Shown: positions 29,929-32,351 of the stretch, piece by piece
How the letters are laid out: each line of letters starts with the position of its first letter
Position numbering within the stretch: the stretch's first letter is position 1
Origin: Planctomycetota bacterium
Lineage (GTDB): Bacteria; Planctomycetota; JAMOSO01
Reading direction: 5' to 3'
Assembly: GCA_027063065.1 (NCBI GenBank)
Contig: JAMOSO010000055.1
Span: 30,673 to 94,672, forward strand
DNA: 64,000 bases
Notes under the pieces: generated by a model
What the model saw: only the letters and a program-made list of their open reading frames with translations
Databases searched by the model: none
What the model was told of the DNA's origin: nothing
Position numbers and translations under genes: made by a program

Positions 29929-32112
29929 ATGAAATATGAGGGAAAAGTAAATAAATTATACGAGAAAGCACAAAGTGTTAATGGATATTTTGTGGGTATA
30001 TCTATTCGTTGGAAAATTTTAGCAGCATTTACTTTGGTTTTTATAACACCTATTGCATTGCAATCATTGGGCGTAGATTTAATTACATATATTGTTTTCG
30101 GATTGCCGTTAATTTTAGTTATCGGTTTATATTCGAGTCATCGCATTTTAACCACGATTAAAAATTTAGAGTCAATTATTAATAATCTTGCGGGTCGTAA
30201 AGTTGAAAATATATCAAAAAAAACCAAAGGCGATGAATTACATAATGTTATAGCTTCGCTAGATGGTATGGTAAATACGTTAGAAAGTAGCTATTCTAAA
30301 AAGAAAAAACAAAGCAAAAAGCAAAGCAAAAAACAAAGCAAAAAGCAAAAGATTGTCGAGATAAAAAAAGACGATCAAAAAATAAGACAGAGTTTTCATG
30401 CCAGCTTATCCACAGGACGCAGTGTTAGAGGCGATATATATATATTGCCCAGTCGAGAGACTGATGTTGGTAATTTTGGATTTAATTTAACCAGACGTGA
30501 AAGTTTGTTTTTATTGCACCAAAGTATCCCAGAAGTTAAACGACAGCTAAAAGAATTGCGTGATTCTGCTATTTTAGGTGAAAGCGAAAAGGGGATTATT
30601 GATTTTCAATTAACACTCATACAGGATAAAACTTTAATAGATGGTATAGCTTCATGTTTAAATGATGATATGCCATTGATGGGTGCTATAGAGACAACTT
30701 TTGGTGCTTTTGTGCATAGGCTACAGCGTTCAAAAAATACATATATACAGGGTAGAGTTCCAGATTGTACCGATTTAATGTTGCGCTTATTGCAAGTTAT
30801 ACAAGAAAGAATAGGGCATGATGCTTCAAGTCGATATGCAGATGCTAAGGGTAAAATAGTTTATACCAAGCAAATATATCCAAGTGATGTAATCGCATTG
30901 CATAAAATAGGCATTAAGGGCATTATTAGTCTTGAGGGTACGCCATCTTCGCATGCATCTATTTTGTTTCAATCTTTTGAATTGCCATCTGTAAGCAACA
31001 TTGATTTCTCTGGAACAATGCCTTCAGGTGTTGATGTTATGATAGATACAGCACGAAAACAAATGATAACAAACCCTAGTGTTGAAGATATTAAGCGCTT
31101 AGATGTTGATAATTATTCTTTTCAAGGCAAAATCATCAAAACACCTGTTTCTTTGCTTTCTGGACAGCAAATTTGGGTAAGTGCCACCATTAATGTGGCA
31201 TCAACTGCACAAAAGGCATTTGAAGCTGGTGCGGATGGCGTTGGATTATTTAGATCTGAAATGAGTTTTATAGGTCGAGAAACTATCCCCACAGAGGAAG
31301 AGCTTTATGAAGAGTACTCTCAAATCCGTGAGGCATTTGGTGACAAACCTATTGTGTTGAGGATGCTTGATATTGGTGGTGACAAATTGCCTATCACACA
31401 GGATCACAAGGAGGAAAATCCTTGTATGGGTTCTAGATCTATGCGTTTGCTTTTAAAACAGCCAGATATTATGCGACGCCAATTAAGGGCTATGTTACGA
31501 GCGGCTAACGAATTAACAACTATTATTTTCCCGATGGTCAATGGGTGGCACGAGTTGGAATTAATTCAAGCTAGAATTGACACAATAGCTAGCGAGTTAT
31601 CTGATTTGGAAGCTCCAAATGCATCTAAGGTAGAGTATGGTTTGATGGTTGAGGTTCCGGCGATTGTAGAGCGGTTTGAAGATTATGTTGATAGTTTTAA
31701 GCATTTTAATTTAGGCACCAATGATTTAGCCCAATATACTTTAGCTGCCGATAGAAATAATATGGAAGTTGCCAATTTTTTTGACCCAGTGCATCCATCT
31801 ATGTTGTCCATGATTCATAAAGTTACAACTATAGCGGCACAGCGTGGCAAAGAGGTTAGCTTATGCGGTGAAATGGCTGCTAATTTATGGCTTACTCCAT
31901 TATTGGTAGGTTTAGGTGTTAGGGAATTTTCGGTATCTGCAAACTTAATACCACCAATAAAACACTTATTGAGCAATTTAGAGTTAAAAACATGCAATGA
32001 ATTGGCAAATAGAGCATTATCTTGTCGTAGTTTAGATCAAGTGCGCGAAGTAATTTCAGAATATAACGCTAAATATAAAGAATCAAAAATTATTGATGAA
32101 TCAAATATATAG
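29929..32112 (+). CDS. Membrane-anchored PTS enzyme I-like PEP-protein phosphotransferase
   Basis: This 727-residue protein is an enzyme I core on an unusual N-terminus. Two membrane segments (about 29-45 and 51-69) and a HAMP-like helical region (70-122) are followed by a lysine-rich tract with KKQS repeats (about 126-141). Then come the enzyme I domains: an HPr-binding helical region (about 185-300), phospho-His H342 in GTPSSHAS, and the PEP barrel with R442 (FRSEM), R478 (RMLDIGGDK), E575, D599 (GTNDL) and active Cys646 (LCGEMA). All catalytic residues are present, so it should phosphorylate an HPr-type carrier. No HPr or EII gene is near, and the tether suggests a regulatory PTS. Confidence 0.85.
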   Translation: MKYEGKVNKLYEKAQSVNGYFVGISIRWKILAAFTLVFITPIALQSLGVDLITYIVFGLPLILVIGLYSSHRILTTIKNLESIINNLAGRKVENISKKTKGDELHNVIASLDGMVNTLESSYSKKKKQSKKQSKKQSKKQKIVEIKKDDQKIRQSFHASLSTGRSVRGDIYILPSRETDVGNFGFNLTRRESLFLLHQSIPEVKRQLKELRDSAILGESEKGIIDFQLTLIQDKTLIDGIASCLNDDMPLMGAIETTFGAFVHRLQRSKNTYIQGRVPDCTDLMLRLLQVIQERIGHDASSRYADAKGKIVYTKQIYPSDVIALHKIGIKGIISLEGTPSSHASILFQSFELPSVSNIDFSGTMPSGVDVMIDTARKQMITNPSVEDIKRLDVDNYSFQGKIIKTPVSLLSGQQIWVSATINVASTAQKAFEAGADGVGLFRSEMSFIGRETIPTEEELYEEYSQIREAFGDKPIVLRMLDIGGDKLPITQDHKEENPCMGSRSMRLLLKQPDIMRRQLRAMLRAANELTTIIFPMVNGWHELELIQARIDTIASELSDLEAPNASKVEYGLMVEVPAIVERFEDYVDSFKHFNLGTNDLAQYTLAADRNNMEVANFFDPVHPSMLSMIHKVTTIAAQRGKEVSLCGEMAANLWLTPLLVGLGVREFSVSANLIPPIKHLLSNLELKTCNELANRALSCRSLDQVREVISEYNAKYKESKIIDESNI
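30304..30351 (+). repeat. Four 12-bp tandem repeats encoding KKQS/KKQK
   Basis: The unit AAAAA(A/G)CAAAGC occurs in four in-frame copies, the last altered to end in AAG. Alternate copies are identical (a 24-bp period), pointing to slippage duplication. The repeat encodes a polybasic linker between the HAMP-like region and the enzyme I domains. Confidence 0.9.
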
Positions 32113-32141: not shown

Positions 32142-32351
32142 ATGAAACTATTATTAACTATAATCTCGATAGCGTTCTTAGTGGGTGCTTGTTCAAGAGG
32201 TGGTGCACCAAGGCATGATGATGTAATGGCTACGCCAGAGCAAAAGGCGCATAATCAGCGTATGCGTGAAAGAGACTTAAAGGCCGTTGGTGATCCTATT
32301 ATCAGGGCGACAGGCGGAGATTCTTTTTTAAATAATGCTGGGCCTCCGTAA
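32142..32351 (+). CDS. Small lipoprotein of unknown function
   Basis: This 69-residue protein has a signal peptide ending in the lipobox LVGAC (Cys17) and a short, charged mature part (about 52 residues, with an Arg-rich stretch and a GGDS segment). It should be lipidated and anchored to a membrane. AGGAGAGAA precedes the ATG. It follows the enzyme I-like gene by 29 bases, probably on the same transcript, and is closed by a strong terminator. I recognise no family. Confidence 0.75.
   Translation: MKLLLTIISIAFLVGACSRGGAPRHDDVMATPEQKAHNQRMRERDLKAVGDPIIRATGGDSFLNNAGPP

Follow-up and report, generated by a model that had tools for sequence, protein, structure and literature searches.

The PTS begins with enzyme I (EI), a normally soluble protein that starts the phosphate relay from PEP. 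Its main control is taken to be the PEP/pyruvate ratio or, in EI-Ntr, a GAF domain that tunes autophosphorylation. The window, by which we mean the whole 64,000-nucleotide stretch of planctomycetotal DNA analysed here, encodes an EI preceded by two hydrophobic helices, raising the question of whether an EI is truly fused to a membrane anchor and, if so, what it might do there. The features on which the analysis rests are as follows.

29929..32112, plus strand: membrane-anchored PTS EI, 727 aa in one open reading frame, stop included
30007..30066, plus strand: transmembrane helix 1 (TM1), about residues 27-46, by hydropathy; the conserved SIxWKILxAF at its start is common to the homologue L011
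30070..30132, plus strand: transmembrane helix 2 (TM2), about residues 48-68, by hydropathy; overlaps a helix at 51-90 in the structural model
30136..30288, plus strand: probable HAMP-like helix-connector-helix, about residues 70-120, from profile tests; undetected by Pfam
30289..30393, plus strand: Lys-rich linker of KKQS repeats, about residues 121-155; specific to this lineage, without counterpart in L011
30394..31077, plus strand: N-terminal half of EI, with a divergent HPr-docking helical subdomain and the swivelling domain carrying phospho-acceptor H342
31129..32067, plus strand: C-terminal PEP-binding and dimerisation domain of EI (R442, R478, R503, E575, N598, D599, C646)
32142..32351, plus strand: small lipoprotein-like open reading frame, 69 aa, beginning 29 bases past the anchored EI; no Pfam match

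Inspection of the frame revealed an ATG start and no internal stop over 727 codons, encoding in order a two-helix hairpin, a HAMP-like helix pair, the Lys-rich linker and EI. Two hydrophobic peaks (about residues 29-48 and 46-67; Kyte-Doolittle maxima 1.9 and 2.34) precede EI within this single frame, confirming the membrane helices that a sequence-only reading of the DNA had described. The loop separating them amounts to a few residues, and the protein is, as judged from its sequence, essentially without a periplasmic domain. The junction carries a long low-complexity linker and the EI is highly divergent, features that would suit either a missed frameshift between two genes or a pseudogene in decay. 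Such an artefact is nonetheless extremely improbable, given 727 codons without a stop and an independent genome, G035, with the same architecture but without that linker sequence. Because the G035 protein, about 40% identical, has this architecture within a single frame, a frameshift or joined-gene origin was ruled out. The sequence-only reading had named two outcomes that would count against it, a missed frameshift joining separate genes and homologues that all lack the anchor; we found a single frame in both genomes and an anchored homologue in G035. In this protein, a two-helix anchor and EI are thus genuinely fused.

The G035 homologue (L011; contig C551, 771-2822, minus strand) spans 683 aa in a single frame, has two hydrophobic helices of its own, and aligns from residue 20 or 22 with 39-41% identity and the same order of parts. 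Its start reads MNISIKWKILGAF, and the corresponding stretch of the window protein reads GISIRWKILAAF. The SIxWKILxAF motif of TM1, a DEL triplet, an Asp eight residues past the L of DEL and the whole EI are kept in L011, whereas the KKQS linker, encoded in the window by a local 12-bp tandem repeat (30300-30349), is not. Since the anchor is kept where the linker is missing, the anchor has been inherited and the linker repeat has not, and a functional role for the polybasic linker found no support.

To place this protein in the phylum, we drew on searches of 392 genomes, including that of the window (G000). An EI match (E up to 1e-30) was present in 377 of them, and a match of more than 1,300 bits extending into the anchor in two, G000 and G035; the next-best match reached 331 bits and began at model position 216. 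Searching the 392 genomes with the anchor alone returned G000 and G035 again. G035 lies in another class of the same phylum, since its class comprises just G035 and G004, the latter without an anchored EI. The other long-frame EIs inspected were GAF or HPr forms or overlong out-of-gene frames, no membrane hairpin was seen among them, and a widespread occurrence in the phylum was accordingly rejected. EI homologues turned up in 228 plasmid records, but in none of them did the match span 80% of the query, and no plasmid matched the anchor by itself; viral contigs gave no match. The anchored EI, a type defined by two sequences (G000 and G035), is a real but rare variant.

The EI body, which starts at about residue 156, scored 371 bits against the NCBIfam EI model TIGR01417 (cut-off 341.7), and Pfam PEP-utilizers_C, PEP-utilisers_N and PEP-utilizers each exceeded their cut-offs, with PF02896 (PEP-utilizers_C) covering residues 401-685 at E 7.6e-83. 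In the PDB its best relatives, with residues 199-713 aligned, were EI from Staphylococcus carnosus (2HRO) and EI from E. coli (2HWG), and Foldseek comparison of the modelled C-terminal domain with EI C-terminal domains gave TM scores of 0.84-0.89. H342, R442, R478, R503, E575, N598, D599 and C646 are all present; in the alignment, H342 is conserved in 60 of 61 other EIs and the remaining catalytic columns are invariant in the 61. The description of this body as an otherwise complete EI thus holds for the catalytic residues but not for the protein at large: at 82 strongly conserved columns, defined as the same in at least 90% of the 61 other EIs, the anchored EI deviates at 19 and L011 at 22, where the median EI deviates at 2. 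Changes common to both anchored EIs include H227Q, G338T, G377K, T409L, D411S, T443S, T479M and S594N, and those in the swivel motif are G338T, A347F/L and G377K. The HPr-docking helical domain (PF05524) passed its cut-off at 33.7 versus 24.4 bits, with docking helices off consensus in both proteins, which read GIIDFQL versus IFxxH elsewhere (column 227 is otherwise 90% H). In a quick tree, without bootstrap, the two anchored EIs paired (SH-aLRT 100), and their long branch was distinct from ordinary EIs and from GAF-EIs, a placement that, given the strong divergence from soluble paralogues, is uncertain past their forming a deep clade of their own. Pfam found no GAF domain in the anchored EI, in keeping with its position outside the GAF-EI clade. 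The long separate branch and the many shared deviations led us to reject a recent addition of the anchor to a housekeeping EI, and by its sequence the protein is a specialised third paralogue.

The segment between the hairpin and the EI had been called HAMP-like. In HAMP domains, a parallel, dimeric coiled coil provides the coupling between membrane helices and output domains. Pfam returned no HAMP match (PF00672) in the anchored EI at E up to 10, and a local profile built from 20 HAMP segments of G000 and G035 gave about 0 bits against the stalk, so neither route assigns it to HAMP. The AlphaFold model, of low confidence here, places a helix at 51-90, an 11-residue break and a helix at 102-129, and DEL at residues 102-104 stands in place of the DE[IL]G of HAMP. 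Alignment of the stalk with HAMP by hhalign fell in the expected register, with a local score narrowly above all 150 column shuffles, while 6 of the 150 exceeded its global score. Furthermore, when the anchor profile was searched blind, the top non-self match was the sensor histidine kinase L105, at its TM2-HAMP segment (matched at 169-255; Pfam HAMP at 187-237), and other matches included L107, also a histidine kinase with HAMP, and L109, which combines HAMP with GGDEF; the rest, self-matches aside, were either uncharacterised or proteins of coiled-coil or membrane type (SMC, a permease). The E-values of this search are per genome, the best being 3.3e-4 over 392 genomes, so that single matches are not significant and it is the pattern that counts. 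When the stalk columns of the profile were shuffled with the membrane columns left intact (n=100), HAMP proteins scored at most 8.1 bits, versus 17.4 with the real profile, and L088, a HAMP protein chosen independently of the anchor search, scored 12.3 bits with the real profile. The best PDB match to the anchor, a weak one, was the aerotaxis receptor Aer at residues 182-269 (E 0.45). Fold comparison of residues 1-130 listed generic helical bundles and no HAMP, a result that is uninformative and excludes nothing. The HAMP-like label thus has weak to moderate support from profile tests and lies under Pfam detection; the stalk is HAMP-like, probably a diverged HAMP.

A genome-wide search for HPr, EIIA and EII genes, as the sequence-only reading had proposed, was made in G000 (2.13 Mb, 90% complete, 71 contigs). 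Besides the anchored EI, G000 encodes two ordinary soluble EIs (L010 on contig C18 and the GAF-EI L009 on C55), one HPr on C18 and three EIIA_2 domains on C39, C41 and C53, none of these HPr and EIIA genes lying on the contig of the anchored EI, as that reading had observed of its surroundings. EIIC (PF02378), PTS_IIB (PF02302), EIIA-man (PF03610) and HPr kinase (PF07475) had no match anywhere in G000, of which 90% is covered, and an EIIB or EIIC could sit in the gaps. By gene content, this relay resembles PTS-Ntr, a regulatory form of PTS. G035 carries one fructose-type EIIC/EIIB, so a link between the anchored EI and a permease-free PTS is not general.

The EIIA domains occur in composite proteins. 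L099 (70-1899, plus strand; G000 contig C53, 14753-15142, plus strand) is a Na_H_Exchanger-TrkA_N-EIIA_2 fusion, a cation/proton antiporter. In L095 (1474-2196, minus strand; C41) and L096 (1486-2160, minus strand; C39), EIIA is joined to a DNA-binding domain of the HTH_17 family at the N terminus; a cation/proton antiporter gene adjoins L096, and both proteins look like phosphorylation-controlled transcription factors. At L010 (C18, 22-3042, plus strand), genes for YvcK, HPr and EI stand in a row, followed by a PilM-type ATPase-like gene.

No PTS gene adjoins the anchored EI in G000 or G035. In the window it is flanked by a Gfo/Idh/MocA oxidoreductase gene, the 69-aa lipoprotein-like frame and, on the opposite strand, cytochrome bd-type genes, the lipoprotein-like and cytochrome bd-type labels being given by sequence appearance without a family search; the neighbours in G035, likewise named from sequence, are QueG- and HemN-type in appearance. 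The 69-aa frame is possibly co-transcribed with the anchored EI and is not conserved beside the G035 homologue.

We favour, with a probability of roughly 0.55, the reading that this is a third, membrane-tethered and divergent EI feeding a regulatory PTS, with a stalk that sets dimerisation or location and possibly senses within the membrane. The hairpin would hold EI in the inner membrane with both ends cytoplasmic, and the HAMP-like helix pair would connect it to the catalytic body. H342 is most likely still phosphorylated from PEP, and the phosphate would be handed to the cell's HPr or another acceptor; given the altered docking region, HPr may not be that acceptor. EI autophosphorylation from PEP needs a dimer, formed via the C-terminal domain, and the stalk most likely keeps EI dimeric and brings phosphate flux to the membrane. 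Membrane state may also switch EI activity via the stalk; since there is almost no periplasmic part, any input would be intramembrane, with lipid state, redox, an ion or a partner protein as candidates. Downstream, a PTS apparently without sugar permease would serve regulation by relaying phosphate to EIIA domains, among them the one in the cation/proton antiporter; with EIIA fused to an antiporter, a local circuit at the membrane is plausible. According to the title of reference 57 in PMC13104625, the E. coli K+/H+ antiporter YcgO is inhibited by unphosphorylated PtsN, a precedent for EIIA action on antiporters.

How far the stalk does more than tether is where the alternatives divide. In its strongest form, the protein would be a transmembrane receptor with a PTS output, in which an intramembrane signal passing through the HAMP-like stalk switches PEP-driven EI autophosphorylation; we regard this as possible, though tentative. 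At the other extreme, an active EI would simply be tethered, and the HAMP-like part would pass no signal. The nearly absent periplasmic segment, the weak HAMP match and the ordinary soluble forms of the other EI paralogues in the genome all speak for such a passive anchor, but a homologue with 40% identity retains the DEL motif and the register from TM2 to the following helix, and the stalk is closer to signalling stalks than shuffles are, which makes passivity rather doubtful.

A different departure concerns the EI itself, which might have kept PEP binding and H342 phosphorylation while serving a partner other than HPr, or might act as a membrane PEP sensor. The excess of deviations at conserved columns in both anchored EIs, their common changes in the docking helices (IIDFQ) and swivel, the well-supported deep clade and the lack of an adjoining PTS gene would fit such repurposing. 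Retention of every catalytic residue, C646 and R503 included, together with an N-terminal domain still above the Pfam cut-off, argues the other way, and we consider repurposing unlikely.

The favoured reading, a tethered EI feeding a regulatory relay, can be set beside several known arrangements. With soluble PtsI (TIGR01417; 2HWG, 2HRO) the anchored EI shares the three-part body, all catalytic residues and about 30% identity; it differs in the added hairpin and HAMP-like stalk and in its diverged HPr-docking subdomain and swivel motif. EI-Ntr/PtsP likewise places an N-terminal regulatory module ahead of its EI and feeds regulatory EIIAs, whereas the anchored EI has no GAF, is membrane-anchored and belongs to another clade, with a GAF-EI (L009) in the same genome. 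An N-terminal fusion to EI is also the arrangement of HPr-EI fusions and multiphosphoryl transfer proteins, but theirs are soluble PTS domains and not membrane helices; HPr-EI fusions are frequent in several families of the phylum (L039, L054, L055, L066, L127, L128 and L130). TM-HAMP sensors (histidine kinases, diguanylate cyclases, Aer) have two helices followed by a HAMP-like segment, as here, whereas the anchored EI has an EI for its output, lacks a periplasmic sensor domain and carries a HAMP-like segment under the family threshold. Literature searches returned no account of an EI anchored in the membrane. The word "membrane" is missing from a 2008 survey that lists fusions of EI with GAF, HPr and IIA (PMC2405797), as is "transmembrane" from a 2026 review of PTS-Ntr (PMC13104625).

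An EI on a sensor-type membrane stalk would constitute a new control point at the entry of the PTS. If the receptor interpretation were true, the PTS phosphorelay would respond directly to membrane state, adjusting EIIA-controlled ion antiporters and transcription. The apparently permease-free PTS of G000, with an EIIA built into an antiporter, would be a compact, well-defined setting for testing the control of EI.
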